In this document: positions 13,420 through 21,459 of the stretch, in pieces
Position numbering within the stretch: position 1 is the stretch's first letter
Layout: every line of letters begins with the position of its first letter
NCBI GenBank assembly: GCA_025350965.1
Contig: JANXWV010000025.1
Span: 1 to 64,000 of the forward strand
Source of the DNA: Rhizobacter sp.
Lineage (GTDB): Bacteria > Pseudomonadota > Gammaproteobacteria > Burkholderiales > Burkholderiaceae_C
DNA: 64,000 nucleotides
Direction of reading: 5' to 3'
Program-made: the position numbers and the translations under genes
Notes under the pieces: generated by a model
Seen by the model: the letters and a program-made list of their open reading frames with translations, nothing else
Told to the model about the DNA's origin: nothing
Databases searched by the model: none

Positions 13420-13587
13420 TTCGCCGCGGCTCCCCGCAGGCTGCGGGTGACAACTCTTTACACAGAGATGCATCCGTTCGCCCGAGCCCCGCGTACTGGC
13501 CTTCAGACGCACGAACCGCGTCGTGACCCGTCGGCAACCGGCATACCCCGGGGGCTGTTGCGAACCCCAACCCGAGAGGATGACACC

Positions 13588-15159
13588 ATGAAATCACCGC
13601 GTCTGAACCCCAGCCGCCTGGCCCCGCTGGCAGCGGCCGTCTGTGCGCTCTGCGGCCTGGCCGCCCTGCCGGCACAGGCATCGAGCCACCGCGAGGCACC
13701 GTCGATCACCGGCACGCCGAAGGTCGATGCGACCGACTTCTACATGTTCAACAGCTACGAGGCTGGCCGCGCCGGCTTCGTCACGCTGATCGCGAATTAC
13801 CTGCCGCTGCAAGACGCTTACGGCGGCCCGAACTACTTCAAGCTTGACCCGAACGCGCTGTATGAAATCCATGTGGACAACAACGGCGACGCGAAGGAAG
13901 ACATCACCTTCCAGTTCCGTTTCAAGAACACCTCGAAGGGCAAGACGCTCAGCATCGACGGCAAGGACGTGGGCATTCCGCTGACCCAGTTCGGCGGCGT
14001 GACCGACCCGACCGGCGCGAACCTCAACGTGACCGAGAGCTTCACGCTCGACGTGGTGCGCGGTGACCGCCGCACCGGCACCAAGGGCTCTGTCACCAAC
14101 GCCAGCGGCGGCAGCGCAACTTTCGCGAAGCCGTCCGACAACATCGGCACCAAGACGATCCCGAACTACGCCAACTACGCAGGTCAGTTCGTCTACAGCG
14201 TGAACATTCCGGGCTGCGCCACGCCGGGCAAGGTGTTCGTGGGCCAGCGCAAAGACCCGTTCGCGGTGAACCTGGGCGTGATCTTTGACCTGGTCAACGT
14301 GCCGAGCGCAGCCTTCCTGCTGAACAACGCCAACAAGGATGTCGGCGCCGATTCGCTCGCCGACAAGAACGTGACGAGCCTTGCCGTCGAAGTGCCGACG
14401 AGTTGCCTGCTCGCCACCGGCTCTGCCGACACGGTGATCGGCGGGTGGACTACCGCCAGCGTGCGCCAGGGCAGCCTGTTCAGCGCCGCACCGAAGCCGG
14501 GTTACGGCACGGCCGCCATCAGCGGTGGCGCATGGACGCAGGTGTCCCGCCTGGGCATGCCGCTGGTCAACGAGGTGGTGATCGGCATCAACGACAAGGA
14601 CAAGTTCAACGCCTCCAAGCCCAAGGACGACGGCCAGTTCGCCACCTATGTGACGAACCCGACGCTGCCCAAGTTGCTGGAGATCGCACTGGCCACGCCG
14701 AACATTTCGCCGACCAACTTCCCGCGCCTCGACCTGGTCACGACCTTCCTGACCGGCATCAAGGGCGTGAACCAGCCGGCGACCGTGGTGGCCTCTGAAA
14801 TGCTGCGCCTGAACACCGCGATTCCTGCAGTGGCGTATGCGAATCAGAACCGCCTCGGTCTGCTCGGCGGCCTGCTGTCGGGTGACGGTGACCTGGCCGG
14901 TTACCCGAACGGTCGCCGCCCGAACGACGACGTGGTCGACATCTCGCTCGTCGCGGTGATGGGCGGCCTGTGCGTGGCCAATGGCAACGCCGACACCTAC
15001 AAGTTCGGTGCTGCGTGCAAGCCGAGCGCGGTGCCCTTGGGCACCTCGGCCTACAGCCTGCACGACGGGGTCGACCAGGCGGGGCCGAAGGTCAAGGCAG
15101 CAGGCCCGTTGCTGGCCGGCTTCCCGTATGTGGGCACGCCGCTGCCCGGCGCGCAGTAA
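13588..15159 (+). CDS. DUF4331 exported protein
   Basis: A 523-residue exported protein of the DUF4331 family. A signal peptide of about 31 residues ends PAQA before SSHREAPSI; the SHREAP start of the mature protein is the family hallmark. Further family-like segments are DATDFYMFNSYEAGR and VHVDNNGD-type acidic stretches. The C-terminal region has NGRRPNDDVVDISL. The ATG at 13588 is preferred over upstream in-frame starts because of GAGAGGA about 6-12 nt upstream and the immediate signal sequence. The role of DUF4331 is not known. It heads a four-gene envelope operon: a lipoprotein follows after 10 nt, then a TPR protein and a HupE-like membrane protein. Confidence 0.9.
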   Translation: MKSPRLNPSRLAPLAAAVCALCGLAALPAQASSHREAPSITGTPKVDATDFYMFNSYEAGRAGFVTLIANYLPLQDAYGGPNYFKLDPNALYEIHVDNNGDAKEDITFQFRFKNTSKGKTLSIDGKDVGIPLTQFGGVTDPTGANLNVTESFTLDVVRGDRRTGTKGSVTNASGGSATFAKPSDNIGTKTIPNYANYAGQFVYSVNIPGCATPGKVFVGQRKDPFAVNLGVIFDLVNVPSAAFLLNNANKDVGADSLADKNVTSLAVEVPTSCLLATGSADTVIGGWTTASVRQGSLFSAAPKPGYGTAAISGGAWTQVSRLGMPLVNEVVIGINDKDKFNASKPKDDGQFATYVTNPTLPKLLEIALATPNISPTNFPRLDLVTTFLTGIKGVNQPATVVASEMLRLNTAIPAVAYANQNRLGLLGGLLSGDGDLAGYPNGRRPNDDVVDISLVAVMGGLCVANGNADTYKFGAACKPSAVPLGTSAYSLHDGVDQAGPKVKAAGPLLAGFPYVGTPLPGAQ

Positions 15160-15512: not shown

Positions 15513-16679
15513 ATGGCAACGCCCACAACCCTGCGACTGCTCGCCCTGGCGCTGTGCATTTCGGCCTTCGCCGCTATCGCCACCCCGATCACCCCGACCC
15601 GTGACGATGAAGTCATCGAGGTCCTTCCTGCCGTTGCCAGCAGTCGCGCTGAAGAGCGCCGCCTGCGCAAGCAATTGGCCCAGCAACCGCGTGACGCCAA
15701 GCTAGCACTCGGCGTGGCCCAGGGCTACCTCGATCAAGCGCACGAACTTGGCGACCCGCGCTTCGTGGGCCTTGCGATGGCGGCTATCTCCGGCTGGACC
15801 GACGAGGCCACCATGCCCGACGCGGTGCTCATGATGCGCGCCGTGTTGCAGCAGTACCTGCACGACTTCGATGCCTCGGCCGCAAGCCTGAAGCGCCTGT
15901 TGGCGCGACCGGGTGCCGCGCCCCGGCCGCAGGCCTGGCTCACGCTGGCCACGGTGCGGCGCGTGCAGGGCCGCTACGGCGAATCAGACGCCGCATGCAA
16001 GCAAGTGGCGGCCGCAGGCGCCGCGCTGCACGGCAACGCCTGCCTGGCCGAAAACGCTGCGCTGCGCGGCGAGGTGGACCGGGCCCGCGCTGTCTTCAGC
16101 GGCTTGCTCGCCACACAGCGCAATGCCGCGCCGTCCACCCTGGCCTGGTTGCGCACGAGCCTGGCCGAACTGGAGCAACGCGCCGGCAAGGCGGCGGCGG
16201 CCGACGCCGAGTTCAAGGCCGTGTTGAAGTTGGACGCCGACCCCTACGCCACGCTCGCGTACGCCGACTTCCTAATCGAACAGAAGCGGCCGGCCGAGGC
16301 GTTGGCCTTGCTCAAGGGCCAGGTGCGCAGCGACGCGGTCTTGCTGCGCCTGGCCATTGCCGGCGTGCAGGCCAAGGCGCCCACCGCCAAGGCCGATGGC
16401 GACGAGATGCGCGAGCGCATCGCGCTGGCCAACCAGCGGCCGGATGCGAAGGTGGCGCATGGCCGCGAGCAGTCGATGTTCGCGCTGCAGGTGGACGGCC
16501 AACCCACGCGCGCGCTCGAGCTGGCGCGCGGCAACGTGGCACAGCAGCGCGAGCCGCTTGACCTGCTCGTGTTTGCCCAGGCAGCGCGAGCCAGCGCCGA
16601 CCCGGCTGCCCTGGCCGAGGTGCGCAAGCTGACCCTGGAGATGGGCTTGCGCGACCAGCGTGTCGAGACTTTGCTGTAA
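15513..16679 (+). CDS. Exported TPR-repeat protein
   Basis: A 388-residue protein with an N-terminal signal-like stretch (LRLLALALCISAFAAIA) followed by alpha-helical repeats of TPR type. Readable repeats include AWLTLATVRRVQGRYGESDAA near residue 140 and ATLAYADFLIEQKRPAEALAL near 250. TPR proteins act as protein-binding scaffolds. Its place between the DUF4331/lipoprotein genes and the HupE-like gene (5 nt apart) suggests a periplasmic assembly or adaptor role in this operon; this is inference. Confidence 0.82.
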   Translation: MATPTTLRLLALALCISAFAAIATPITPTRDDEVIEVLPAVASSRAEERRLRKQLAQQPRDAKLALGVAQGYLDQAHELGDPRFVGLAMAAISGWTDEATMPDAVLMMRAVLQQYLHDFDASAASLKRLLARPGAAPRPQAWLTLATVRRVQGRYGESDAACKQVAAAGAALHGNACLAENAALRGEVDRARAVFSGLLATQRNAAPSTLAWLRTSLAELEQRAGKAAAADAEFKAVLKLDADPYATLAYADFLIEQKRPAEALALLKGQVRSDAVLLRLAIAGVQAKAPTAKADGDEMRERIALANQRPDAKVAHGREQSMFALQVDGQPTRALELARGNVAQQREPLDLLVFAQAARASADPAALAEVRKLTLEMGLRDQRVETLL

Positions 16680-16683
16680 CGCC

Positions 16684-17853
16684 ATGGCGCACCATTCCTG
16701 GTGGAAGGCACTGGTGGGGGCGACGCTGCTGTCGATGGCCACCCTGGCCAGCGCGCACAAGGCGAGCGACGCCTACCTGCAGATCGACGCCACCGCGCAA
16801 GGCACGACCGTGCGCCTGGACATCGCGCTGCGTGACCTCGAAGCCGCACTCGACATCGACACCGATCAGGACGGCAAGCTGACCTGGGCCGAGGTCAAGG
16901 CGGCGTGGCCGGCCATCGAACAATACGCGCTGGCGGGCTTGACCATCGCGGGTTGCCCGCTGCGAGCGGAAGGGCGCGGGCTCGAACGCCGCAACGACGG
17001 CGCGTATGCCGTGCTGATGCTGTCGTCGCCCTGCGCGCTGCCGGCTGCGCCCGCGATCCGCTACACGCTGCTGCGCGAAGTCGACCCGACGCACCGGGGC
17101 ATCGTGAAGCTGCAGCGGCCCGGCCAACCGGTGGTGTTGATGCTGCTTGACCCGACGCAAGCCGCGGCTTTGGGTACGAGTGAAAGAGAGGCTGCAGGCG
17201 CATCGGGTGCAGGCGCTGCCGACGCGCCGACAGCGACGACCGCATCGGCGTGGGGGTTCCTTCGCGACGGCATCCACCACATCGTGACCGGCTATGACCA
17301 CGTGCTGTTCCTGCTGTGCCTGCTGCTGCCATCGGTGATGCGGCGCACCCCCCAAGGTTGGCGCCCGGTGGAGCGGTTCTCGCAGGCGGTGCTGCCGGTG
17401 GTGGGCATCGTCTCGGCTTTCACCGTGGCGCACTCGATCACGCTGGCGCTTGCCGCACTGAAGGTGATCTCTCTGTCGCCGGCGTTCATCGAGCCGGCGA
17501 TTGCGGTGACGATCATCCTCGCGGCGCTCGACAACATCTGGCCCATCTTCCCGGTGCGCCGCGTGGTCGTGACCTTCTTCTTCGGGCTGATCCACGGCTT
17601 CGGCTTTGCCAACGTGCTGAGCGAATTGAACCTGCCCACGTCGCAGTTCGTGTGGGCGCTGCTCGAATTCAACATCGGCCTGGAACTCGGGCAATTGATG
17701 ATCGTGAGCGGAGTGACGGCCTTACTGTTCGGCTTGCGCCAGCGCCGAAGCTACCCGGCATGGGTGATCCGCGGCGGCTCGTTTGCAGCGATCGTGGTGG
17801 GCATGTTGTGGCTGATCGAACGCACCGCGAACGTGTCGCTCCTGCCGATATGA
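16684..17853 (+). CDS. HupE/UreJ-like membrane protein with EF-hand loop
   Basis: A 389-residue membrane protein. A signal sequence (about residues 1-24, ending LASA before HKASD) is followed by a ~190-residue exported domain. That domain contains a canonical calcium-binding EF-hand loop at residues 59-70 (DTDQDGKLTWAE). The C-terminal half has about six to seven membrane segments and the HupE/UreJ-type motif HHIVTGYDHVLFLLCLL near residue 200, plus FGLIHGFGFANVL near 300. HupE/UreJ proteins are associated with nickel or cobalt uptake in other bacteria, but no hydrogenase or urease gene is present here. ATG is 5 nt after the TPR stop. Confidence 0.85.
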   Translation: MAHHSWWKALVGATLLSMATLASAHKASDAYLQIDATAQGTTVRLDIALRDLEAALDIDTDQDGKLTWAEVKAAWPAIEQYALAGLTIAGCPLRAEGRGLERRNDGAYAVLMLSSPCALPAAPAIRYTLLREVDPTHRGIVKLQRPGQPVVLMLLDPTQAAALGTSEREAAGASGAGAADAPTATTASAWGFLRDGIHHIVTGYDHVLFLLCLLLPSVMRRTPQGWRPVERFSQAVLPVVGIVSAFTVAHSITLALAALKVISLSPAFIEPAIAVTIILAALDNIWPIFPVRRVVVTFFFGLIHGFGFANVLSELNLPTSQFVWALLEFNIGLELGQLMIVSGVTALLFGLRQRRSYPAWVIRGGSFAAIVVGMLWLIERTANVSLLPI

Positions 17854-17860
17854 ACGGGAT

Positions 17861-17891
17861 CTGACCGCGACCTGAGCCGCCCCACTACAAT
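17861..17891 (+). promoter_or_regulatory. Probable thrS leader promoter
   Basis: A good -10 element TACAAT (17886-17891) has a weaker -35 candidate CTGACC (17861-17866) 19 nt upstream. A start of transcription near 17898 would place the leader peptide about 25 nt downstream. The -10 is clear, the -35 is tentative. Confidence 0.5.
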
Positions 17892-17922
17892 CGTCGTTTT
17901 CAACGACAAGGGCGAGAAAGGC

Positions 17923-17997
17923 ATGATGGTTATGACACCGCGAACTACCACCTTCGGCCTGAAGGTTCGGTCCGCCGCGCGCATCGACCTGCCTTAA
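17923..17997 (+). CDS. Threonine leader peptide of thrS
   Basis: A 24-codon frame reading [15 protein letters not shown] followed by RSAARIDLP and TAA. Three consecutive Thr codons (17944-17952) plus one four codons earlier (17935) are the pattern of an attenuation leader. AAGG at 17918-17921 precedes the ATG cluster; starts at 17926 or 17932 would have better spacing. It ends 23 nt before a terminator hairpin and 68 nt before thrS. Ribosome stalling on Thr codons when charged tRNA-Thr is low would favour thrS read-through. The mechanism is inferred from layout; the frame and hairpin are directly visible. Confidence 0.75.
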
Positions 17998-18019
17998 CTC
18001 ATTCCCTGATCGTTCAAAC

Positions 18020-18051
18020 AAGGCGCGGCTCAGTCCGCGCCTTTGTCATTT
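18020..18051 (+). terminator. thrS attenuator terminator
   Basis: A perfect 9-bp stem AAGGCGCGG (18020-18028) / CCGCGCCTT (18035-18043), loop ctcagt, is followed by tgtcattt. The 5' arm plus one loop base (GCGCGGC, 18023-18029) can alternatively pair with GCCGCGC at 17974-17980 in the leader frame, giving an antiterminator. Confidence 0.78.
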
Positions 18052-18064
18052 CTGGAGCAACAAG

Positions 18065-19984
18065 ATGGTCTCGATTCAACTGCCCGATGGTTCGAAACGC
18101 GAGTTCCCCGGCCCGGTCACGGTGGCCGAAGTGGCCGCCTCCATCGGCGCGGGTCTCGCGAAGGCGGCGCTCGCCGGCCGCATCGGGCAGGGCGCTGATG
18201 CACGGGTGGTCGACACCAGCTTCGTCATCGAGCACGACGCACAACTCGCCGTCATCACCGACAAGGACACCGCCGGTCTCGACGTGATCCGCCACTCGAC
18301 GGCGCACCTGCTGGCGTATGCGGTCAAAGAGCTGTTTCCCGATGCTCAGGTGACGATCGGCCCGGTCATCGAGAACGGCTTCTTCTACGACTTCTCGTAC
18401 AAGCGCCCGTTCACGCCGGACGACCTGGCGGCCATCGAAGCAAAGATGACCGAACTGGCGCGCAAGGACGAGAAGGTCCAGCGCCGCGTGCTGCCGCGCG
18501 ACGAGGCCGTCGCGTACTTCAAGGGCCTGGGTGAGCACTACAAGGCCGAGATCATCGCCAGCATCCCGGCCGGTGAGGACGTGTCGCTCTACCGCGAAGG
18601 CGCGTTCGAAGACCTGTGCCGAGGCCCGCACGTGCCGAGCACCGGCAAGCTCAAGCACTTCAAGCTGATGAAGCTCGCCGGTGCCTACTGGCGCGGCGAC
18701 CACCGCAACGAGATGCTGCAGCGCATCTACGGCACGGCGTGGGCCACGAAGGACGAGTTGGCGCAGTACCTGCACATGCTGGGAGAAGCCGAGAAGCGCG
18801 ATCACCGCAAGCTCGGTCGCGAACTCGACCTGTTCCACATCGACGAACACGCGCCGGGCCTGGTGTTCTGGCACCCGAAGGGCTGGACGGTGTGGCAGCA
18901 AGTCGAGCAGTACATGCGCGCGGTCTACCGCGACAACGGCTACCAGGAAGTGAAGGGCCCGCAGCTGTTGGACCAGGGCTTGTGGGAGAAGACGGGTCAC
19001 TGGGACAAGTACCGCGAGAACATGTTCACGACCGAATCGGAGAAGCGCGACTACGCGCTCAAGCCGATGAACTGCCCGGGTCACATCCTGATCTACAAGC
19101 AGGGCATCAAGAGCTACCGCGACCTGCCGCTGCGCTACGGTGAGTTCGGCCAGTGCCACCGCAACGAGCCCACCGGCGGGCTGCACGGCATCATGCGCGT
19201 GCGCGGCTTCACGCAGGACGATGGTCACATCTTCTGCCTCGAAGACCAGATCCTCGACGAGTGCGTGGCGTACACAACGCTGCTGCAAAAGGTCTATGCC
19301 GACTTCGGCTTCGACAAGATCATCTACAAGGTCGCAACACGTCCGGACGCGCGCATCGGCACCGACGACAGCTGGGACAAGGCCGAGCATGCCTTGATCG
19401 AAAGCCTGCGGCGTTCGAACTGCGAGTTCGAGATCGCGCCGGGCGATGGCGCTTTCTACGGCCCGAAGATCGAGTACACGCTGAAAGACGCGCTCGGCCG
19501 GCAGTGGCAGTGCGGAACGATGCAGGTCGATTTCTCGATGCCCGAGCGGCTGGGTGCCGAGTACGTGGCCGAGAGCGGCGAGCGCCATGCGCCGGTGATG
19601 CTGCACCGCGCGATCGTCGGCAGCCTGGAGCGCTTCATCGGCATCCTGATCGAACAGCACGCCGGCGCGCTGCCTGCCTGGCTCGCGCCGCTGCAGGTGA
19701 GTGTGCTCAACATCACCGAAGCGCAGGCCGAATACGCCCGGGACGTCGTCAAAACGCTGCAAAAACAAGGACTTAGAGTGGCGTCTGATTTGCGCAACGA
19801 GAAAATTAACTATAAAATCCGCGAGCATTCAATGCAGAAGGTTCCGTACATCCTTGTCGTGGGTGACAAGGAAAAGGCAAACGGAACCGTTGCGGTGCGC
19901 GCCCGGGGCAACCAAGACCTGGGTGTGATGCCTCTGGCCGACTTCACACTGAAGATCGCCGCAGACATCGCCCAAAAAGTCTGA
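18065..19984 (+). CDS. thrS: Threonyl-tRNA synthetase
   Basis: A 639-residue class II synthetase that charges tRNA-Thr in the cytoplasm. The full domain order is present: an N-terminal TGS domain (residues 1-60), editing domain with [12 protein letters not shown] near 77, a catalytic core with [11 protein letters not shown] (zinc-ligand Cys) near 335, [14 protein letters not shown] near 362 and [13 protein letters not shown] near 512, then an anticodon-binding domain to residue 639. The length matches E. coli ThrRS (642). It heads the translation-gene block and is preceded by a Thr leader peptide and terminator. Confidence 0.98.
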
Positions 19985-20046
19985 AGTACAAACCGCCGCC
20001 CGCGTGGGTGGCCGGTTGAACCCAGGCGCGCTTCGAATGATTGTTG

Positions 20047-20066
20047 GGCCCCTGTGCCTTGGGGCC
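20047..20066 (+). other. Hairpin upstream of infC
   Basis: A 6-bp GC stem GGCCCC (20047-20052) / GGGGCC (20061-20066) with an 8-nt loop lies in the thrS-infC gap. It ends six bases before the infC ribosome-binding site. It may act in translation control or as a weak terminator. Confidence 0.4.
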
Positions 20067-20084
20067 TGTTGAAAGGTATGAACC

Positions 20085-20633
20085 ATCGCTACTTTTGCTG
20101 ACCGCCGTACTCCGAACGCAGAGCGCAAGCACCGCCTGAACCGCGAGATCATGGCACCGGAAGTCCGGCTGAACGGGCCCGAGAACGAACCGCTGGGCGT
20201 CATGAGCATCACCGAGGCTTTGCGCCTGGCGGGCGAGCAGGACGTCGATCTGGTCGAGATCGTCGCCCAGGCCGACCCCCCGGTGTGCCGCCTCATGGAC
20301 TACGGCAAGTTCAAGTACCAGGAGCAGAAGAAGGCTGCCGAGGCGAAGAGCAAGCAGAAGGTCATCGAGATCAAGGAAGTCAAGTTCCGCCCCGGTACCG
20401 ACGAAGGCGACTACGCGATCAAGATGCGCAATTTGCGCCGCTTCATTGCCGAAGACGGTGACAAGGGCAAGGTCACTCTGCGATACCGGGGCCGCGAGAT
20501 CACGCACCAGGACATCGGCATGCGCTTGCTCGAGCGCATTCGCGACGAGCTGGCCGATGTGGCGGTGGTCGAGAACATGCCGAAGCTCGAAGGGCGCCAG
20601 ATGATCATGGTGCTCGGGCCGAAGCGAAAGTAA
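20085..20633 (+). CDS. infC: Translation initiation factor IF-3
   Basis: A 182-residue IF-3, which prevents premature subunit joining and checks the start codon. The natural start is the rare codon ATC at 20085, with AAGG eight bases upstream, giving [20 protein letters not shown]. Rare ATT/ATC/ATA starts underlie infC autoregulation in bacteria. Starting at the ATG 20151 would remove the first 22 residues of the N-domain. Family motifs include [27 protein letters not shown] in the N-domain and linker, and [19 protein letters not shown] starting the C-domain. An out-of-frame ATG mini-frame (20078-20101) overlaps the start. Confidence 0.95.
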
Positions 20634-20702
20634 CAGCGCGCTGAAAGAGCGCGCCCAGGGTTCAGCGCCACGGTCTGGTCACCGCGGCGCTGTCACAAGC
20701 GG

Positions 20703-20745
20703 CTTCAGGCTTACAAGACGGCAAGTGTTTTGCCGGCGCCTGAAG
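20703..20745 (+). promoter_or_regulatory. Two-part hairpin before rpmI, possible L20/L35 operator
   Basis: An outer stem CTTCAGGC (20703-20710) / GCCTGAAG (20738-20745) encloses an inner stem CGGCAA (20719-20724) / TTGCCG (20730-20735). It ends 12 nt before the rpmI ribosome-binding site. L20 represses its own operon through leader RNA structures in E. coli and Bacillus; whether this is such a site is an inference. Confidence 0.5.
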
Positions 20746-20767
20746 TAGCAACAAAGAAGGAGCAGTG

Positions 20768-20971
20768 ATGCCCAAAATGAAGACCAAGAGCGGCGCGAAA
20801 AAACGTTTTCGCGTTCGTCCAGGCGGTACCGTCAAGCGGGGCCAGGCGTTCAAGCGCCACATCCTCACCAAGAAGACCACGAAGAACAAGCGCCATTTGC
20901 GTGGCTCTGTCTCCGTGCACGAGACCGACAAGGGGCGCATCAAGCAGATGTTGCCCACTGCTGGCCTCTAA
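20768..20971 (+). CDS. rpmI: 50S ribosomal protein L35
   Basis: A 67-residue basic ribosomal protein. [14 protein letters not shown] and the [18 protein letters not shown] segment are diagnostic for L35. The ATG at 20768 has AAGGAG seven bases upstream; a GTG immediately before it is not needed. It lies between infC and rplT as in most bacteria. The upstream hairpin may couple its expression to free L20. Confidence 0.98.
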
Positions 20972-21431: not shown

Positions 21432-21459
21432 AAGGCCGACCTCGTGTGCGGCCTTTTTT
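21432..21459 (+). terminator. Terminator/attenuator upstream of pheS
   Basis: A 7-bp stem AAGGCCG (21432-21438) / CGGCCTT (21449-21455) is followed by TTTTG. It ends 20 nt before the pheS ATG, so it may either end the rplT transcript or attenuate pheST. No Phe-rich leader peptide is visible before it. Confidence 0.75.

Follow-up and report, generated by a model that had tools for sequence, protein, structure and literature searches.

In Escherichia coli, the thrL attenuator controls the thrABC operon by reading Thr and Ile codons, and the pheM attenuator controls pheST by reading Phe codons. The E. coli gene for threonyl-tRNA synthetase (ThrRS), thrS, is governed by a translational operator, in which ThrRS binds through tRNA-like arms over the ribosome-binding site. 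Leader peptides in front of synthetase genes have been described in other bacteria: the uORFC-8-2 motif, a Cys leader before cysS in Rhodobacterales, is described as ribosome-mediated attenuation (PMC8632094), and a His leader precedes hisS* and hisZ in bacilli (PMC2965389). Judging by the portions of these papers available to us, the cysS leader of Rhodobacterales is the closest published synthetase case that we found.

The window (the whole stretch of DNA that we analysed, 64,000 nt from Rhizobacter sp.) contains a candidate leader of this kind before thrS. As far as uORFC-8-2 is described in the available part of its report, the two are alike in having tandem codons for the synthetase's own amino acid, a terminator and presumed ribosome-mediated attenuation before an aminoacyl-tRNA synthetase gene. 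Whereas uORFC-8-2 has Cys codons 14–15 before cysS in Alphaproteobacteria, the window has Thr codons 2 and 5–7 before thrS in Burkholderiales, and the likeness drawn here is between described features. On a similarly partial view of its source, the bacilli leader is also a peptide attenuator, placed before a synthetase paralogue, but it belongs to Firmicutes and uses His codons. With thrL and pheM the leader would share its mechanism, thrL sensing Thr and pheM controlling a synthetase; unlike thrL, which serves biosynthesis genes and also reads Ile codons, and unlike pheM, which reads Phe, it would read Thr for thrS. The E. coli operator also acts on thrS, according to the supply of ThrRS; unlike that operator, the window has a peptide gene and a terminator, with only 21 nt between the terminator stem and the thrS start.

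Rfam, which includes a T-box model and a threonine operon leader family, gave no family match for 17840–18120 up to E 5, and we accordingly rejected both of these as descriptions of the region; searches with 16 relatives returned three tRNAs and three weak matches under gathering scores only. Our searches of open-access papers turned up no account of a leader peptide for thrS, nor did Rfam, and the available portions of PMC11109978, PMC4833913 and PMC10219788 contained nothing on thrS. The kind of mechanism is already known; as far as could be seen, thrS as its target is new.

All parts of the leader lie on the forward strand, as does thrS (18065–19984; TIGR00418, 720 bits), which is followed by infC, rplT, pheS and pheT. 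A HupE/UreJ_2 gene (16660–17853) and a DUF4331 gene (13447–15159) lie upstream of the leader. A −10-like TACAAT at 17886–17891 marks a probable dedicated promoter. This box is conserved in relatives, with TANAAT found 30–75 nt 5′ of the leader ATG in 77 of 92 as against 2 of 92 in one base shuffle; a sigma-70 scan of 17600–20800 found no promoters. There follows a conserved purine-rich block, AAGGGCGAGAAAGG (17908–17921), recognized in alignment A1 and in the leaders of the family, with a Shine–Dalgarno-like GAGAAAGG that ends 10 nt before the leader ATG at 17932. The block is well conserved over its full length, seemingly beyond what a Shine–Dalgarno sequence needs.

The leader peptide gene (17932–17997) encodes 21 residues and ends with TAA at 17995–17997. 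It contains the tandem Thr codons ACT ACC ACC (codons 5–7, 17944–17952), identified as control codons from the sequence, codon counts and Thr enrichment. By duplex energies, segment 1 (CCGCGAACTAC, 17938–17948) can pair with segment 2 (GCCGCGC, 17974–17980), although in the window that duplex has a z of only −0.3 and only CGCG pairs. Complementarity, covariation and folding mark segment 2 as the 5′ arm of a putative antiterminator. The intrinsic terminator (18020–18043), supported by a terminator scan and covariation, has a 9-bp stem, a 6-nt loop and an energy of −16.4 kcal/mol; its 5′ arm contains segment 3 (18023–18029), and a T-rich tail extends over 18042–18051. It is the scan's only forward-strand match in 17600–20800, where the terminator count on both strands, 3 against 3.3 expected, is not unusual. 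That count is no more than chance; the case for a leader rests on comparison. Only 1 of 200 shuffles of the leader region folded equally well (z −2.73). Further downstream, between rplT and pheS, a hairpin of AAGGCCG...CGGCCTT followed by T's stands at 21432–21459, about 20 nt before pheS, and no Phe-rich frame was seen near it by eye.

The first-pass annotation had described a 24-codon frame with Thr codons at 17935 and 17944–17952, ending 23 nt before a perfect 9-bp terminator, and had matched GCCGCGC at 17974–17980 to GCGCGGC at 18023–18029. That frame (17923–17997, 24 residues), its Thr codons, the perfect terminator and the exact complementarity within it are all present; the gap is 22 nt, not 23, and the conserved start is ATG 17932, which gives the shorter, 21-residue peptide. 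Conservation makes this ATG the most likely start. In-frame ATGs stand at the place of 17923 in 15 and at the place of 17926 in 21 of 93 relatives, a set in which the ATG of 17932 is fixed by the search pattern itself; neither upstream ATG is thus conserved across the family, although the same-genus L094–L097 have both. Two relatives (L311 and L312), each with the leader before thrS, have GTG at the place of 17932, which marks this position as the start.

The stop has changed in the window. All five same-genus relatives that were read (L094–L097 and L099; a sixth genome, G156, was left out for its split thrS) stop with TAG directly before segment 2. The window has CGG at that site (17968–17970), and its frame runs nine codons further, through segment 2, to TAA 17995. 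By ribosome footprint sizes, on which we base the coverage of segment 2 by a ribosome at the stop or at the Thr codons, a ribosome on the stop at 17995 would reach only the 3′ part of segment 2, because the window lost the earlier stop. The proposal that such a ribosome covers 17974–17980 therefore needs correction: the window's stop lies 3′ of segment 2, and only the 3′ part would be covered. Long frames also occur in other relatives, for example L098, L019, L100 and L149, and the lost stop may stem from an assembly error, the draft genome consisting of 155 contigs at 88% completeness.

Named relatives were taken from a ThrRS scan of genome contigs as the best 80 loci, of which 79 have sequence before thrS (L050 was excluded). 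A frame fitting MTPRT was found in 41 of these 79 (42 with the window), and an MTPRT-type or diverged leader, labelled by hand-reading, in 56. Leader-bearing genera include Acidovorax, Comamonas, Rhodoferax, Roseateles, Massilia, Ralstonia, Achromobacter, Bordetella and Pandoraea; a 38-residue stretch in Ralstonia and MFFPLARTTTRNFRPMSR in Achromobacter are examples of the peptides. In Ralstonia L058, L065 and L071 the terminator lies about 190 nt before thrS, with a long extra leader. By hand assignment, 23 of the 79 loci are without a leader, 15 of them keeping a terminator before thrS (G+C-rich and 37–107 nt from the gene), several soon after a TAAAAT box. One locus, L023 of Polaromonas sp. 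KJH.2, has ATA at the leader start and no tandem Thr codons and retains the terminator, the picture of a decaying leader.

We also surveyed 150 genomes of the family, covering 141 genera and including the window's own, with the pattern GGTTATGACNCCNCGNACNAC, degenerate at third positions. It matched 91 of the 150, the window included, in one copy each, and its reversed control matched in one; with up to three mismatches, 122 of the 150 genomes matched, some by chance. The window's genome holds one exact copy of the motif. The short core CGAACTACNACC, with 3 matches against 8 for the reversed control, is not specific. The 93 leaders that were read (90 pattern matches besides the window, together with the same-genus L094, L096 and L097) all sit 121–204 nt before the thrS start, with a terminator between in 92, and 8 of 8 further variant leaders that were fetched also precede thrS.

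In other families of the order, tblastn placed 57 loci; in 40 of them a terminator lies no more than 200 nt from thrS. Of these 40, 12 have, in the 130 nt before the terminator, an ATG frame with three or more Thr in eight residues, as against 0.61 ± 0.80 in shuffles (maximum 4 in 200) and 6 for the best other amino acid in the same test; one of the 12, L248, is doubtful, since it probably overlaps a tRNA. The peptides, such as MFKRTTTTRISR and MQLNRTTTTS, have little in common with MTPRTTT beyond the Arg–Thr run. Several loci of the order, among them L251, L256 and L258, have a tRNA gene ahead of the leader or thrS (three by Rfam, with tRNA-like flags on many loci). Beyond the order but within the class, a ThrRS match was present in 104 genomes, 61 of which were examined; 24 had a terminator and 2 a Thr-rich frame, which, with a shuffle mean of 0.20 and maximum of 2, we take as chance.

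The antiterminator was compared across 141 distinct leaders. With segment 2 anchored by sequence and position only, a 5-nt core was resolved in 126, a segment 2 or segment 3 core match being absent in 15; a 6-nt core scan for segment 2 resolved 93 of the 141, with 65 paired against 39.7 expected. Among the 126, the inner flanking pair forms in 91, as against 57.6 expected if the two sides were independent (U:A 30, G:C 49), and in 41 against 58.3 expected when slid by one. The outer flank pair shows little excess (91 against 84.3 expected), and the second flanks show none. In alignment A1 (54 rows), 81.2% of antiterminator cells are paired and 28 are changed on both sides, compared with 12.2 ± 2.4 in shuffled and 3–6 in slid versions; 126 of 500 shuffles reach the observed 3 pairs with changes on both sides, and 63 of 500 reach the number of pair types, which is unexceptional. 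In permutations, which like the other permutation tests of pairing ignore relatedness, 0 of 2,000 permuted arms paired as well as the leaders' own terminator arms; row by row against swapped arms, the own arm was above the median in only 65%. The terminator covaries too, with pair 169:198 as GC in 35, AU in 14 and GU in 4 of 54 rows. Correction for the tree (ThrRS tree, 45 rows) left 2–4 supported independent pairs at p 0.5–1, too few events. The excess of antiterminator energy over shuffles is modest: a mean z of −1.2, with p<0.05 in 16 of 56 leaders (a set that includes L015 and L063, otherwise counted as leaderless), and a z of −1.7 in the window. The comparison among relatives that the first-pass annotation had put forward as a check came out in its favour, with the Thr-rich frame and both pairings conserved through pairing-keeping changes whose independence on the tree is unproven.

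In 107 of 126 leaders the segment 2 core starts at a distance of 3–20 nt from the stop's first base; for the middle half it starts 31–40 nt after the first tandem Thr codon, and it lies inside the frame in 15 of the 126, the window among them. A geometry in which stalling would free segment 2 and the stop would cover it fits 107 of the 126 leaders; the window's stop falls beyond segment 2. Folding of the window's RNA left free 3′ of a stalled ribosome gave the antiterminator a pair probability of 0.96 as long as segment 4 had not yet been transcribed. Once segment 4 is there, equilibrium favours the terminator (antiterminator probability 0.003), which means that the switch has to be kinetic, working during transcription.

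We consider it likely, at a probability of about 0.8, that thrS is controlled here by a transcription attenuator of the ribosome-mediated type, with charged tRNA-Thr as the sensed signal, and the earlier proposal of peptide-based Thr attenuation remains the best-fitting reading. The anatomy is plain to see and agrees with such a device: a short frame with a putative ribosome-binding site (the conserved start and the purine block) lies upstream of thrS, its Thr codons match the regulated gene (some variants having only two), an intrinsic terminator stands before the structural gene, and a predicted, mutually exclusive antiterminator shares an arm with that terminator. That the ribosome stalls, that the terminator acts in vivo and that the system responds to Thr we infer, as follows. 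Transcription would begin near 17898 and translation at ATG 17932. Given sufficient Thr-tRNA, the ribosome would pass the Thr codons and reach the stop, segment 2 would be covered or paired with segment 1, the terminator at 18020–18043 would form and transcription would end before thrS. With Thr-tRNA short, the ribosome would stall on codons 5–7 (17944–17952), leaving segment 2, about 30 nt downstream, free to pair with segment 3 before segment 4 is made, and thrS would be transcribed.

Codons 2–5 are frozen at synonymous sites. In the 93 leaders, codon 2 (17935–17937 in the window) is ACA in 93, codon 3 is CCG in 93, codon 4 (17941–17943, abutting the Thr run on its 5′ side) is CGA in 89 and CGG in the rest, and codon 5 is ACT in 89 and ACG in the rest. 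Three of the four are rare synonyms, CCG being the commonest Pro codon: in the thrS genes of leader-bearing named loci, ACA and ACT make up 4.1% and 5.2% of Thr codons and CGA 2.8% of Arg codons. Base-pairing between CGAAC and GUUCG or GUCCG further downstream was rejected as the full cause of the freezing, since the 64 leaders that have no such partner keep CGA in 60 cases and ACT in 61, and ACT is kept in 19 of 19 where C would face the partner; the way the named rows were selected itself determined codon 2 and some of codon 3, and these conclusions are limited to CGA and ACT.

One alternative is that the frozen block ACA CCG CGA ACT is itself the real sensor, as a stall or slow-decoding site or as a nascent-peptide or ThrRS-binding signal, with the extra Thr residues helping; we regard this as unlikely. 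In its favour are the freezing even where the GTTCG or GTCCG partner is missing and the finding that 8 of 13 far-relative leaders (a set that excludes the misread L229 frame) have a Thr codon immediately preceded by CGA, including L108, L109, L256, L258 and L264, whose peptides are otherwise unrelated; the other five (L105, L230, L234, L240 and L251) lack CGA there, which tells against it. Variation in Thr content cuts both ways. There are 26 family matches with up to three mismatches that keep ACACCGCG(A/G)AC without Thr at codon 6, and of seven such leaders fetched, all before thrS, five (L312 and L315–L318) contain no Thr other than the fixed ones of codons 2 and 5. Against this, Thr as an amino acid is strongly enriched past residue 5: among 42 leaders anchored solely on codons 1–5 (41 named loci from the best 80, and the window), it accounts for 44.6% of residues 6–9, compared with 4.5% in ThrRS, with Thr at position 6 in 35 of 42 and at position 7 in 21 of 42. 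Exceptions are the 7 of 42 without Thr at residue 6 and the 6 of 42 with fewer than three Thr in the first eight residues. Codon choice at position 6 is free (ACG 43, ACC 27, ACA 19 and ACT 4 among the 93 leaders), which rules out a general selection for rare Thr codons, and enrichment with free codon choice means that a Thr-specific reading is needed. Five residues, moreover, cannot extend far into the exit tunnel, which also tells against this alternative.

A slow-decoding site before a Thr codon is one idea for why these codons are frozen within a Thr-reading attenuator. CGA codons form an inosine–adenine wobble in the P site. We tentatively raise the possibility, doubtful as it is, that the rare Arg codon CGA before ACT (or ACG) acts as a sensitivity amplifier that slows Thr decoding, making the dicodon, and not just the Thr run, the conserved sensor. 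A small drop in charged tRNA-Thr would then stall the ribosome at the CGA-preceded Thr codon. If true, this would explain both the survival of the dicodon through changes of the peptide and the leaders that have only two Thr codons.

The attenuator reading was also weighed against a plain terminator that ends an upstream transcript and has a small frame in front of it by accident. The upstream gene does end at 17853 on the same strand, and terminators persist in most of the leaderless named loci among the best 80 (the 15 of 23 above), but a promoter-like box separates that gene from the leader, and conservation takes in the start, the purine block, the Thr codons and segment 2 together as one unit, an observation that makes this explanation very improbable. 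We give still less credence to action of the terminated leader RNA or peptide in trans as a small regulator, in the manner of the trp leader peptide of Sinorhizobium meliloti, peTrpL, for which the available part of the report states a trans role (PMC7298713), because most sequence outside the start block, Thr codons and pairing segments varies and every leader read, the 93 and the further 8, stood next to thrS.

Taken as an attenuator, the leader makes thrS, like cysS in Rhodobacterales before it, a synthetase gene whose proteobacterial leader peptide is broadly conserved. The thrS of a large bacterial group would thus be served by a peptide attenuator and that of E. coli by a protein–RNA operator, the same need answered by different means. 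The roughly 140 distinct natural variants (141), lost stops included, offer material for studying how such a switch evolves, and the frozen rare codons supply a testable idea about codon choice in attenuators. For the organisms that carry it, comparison of these sequences suggests that the thrS leader very probably raises enzyme output when charged threonine tRNA runs short.
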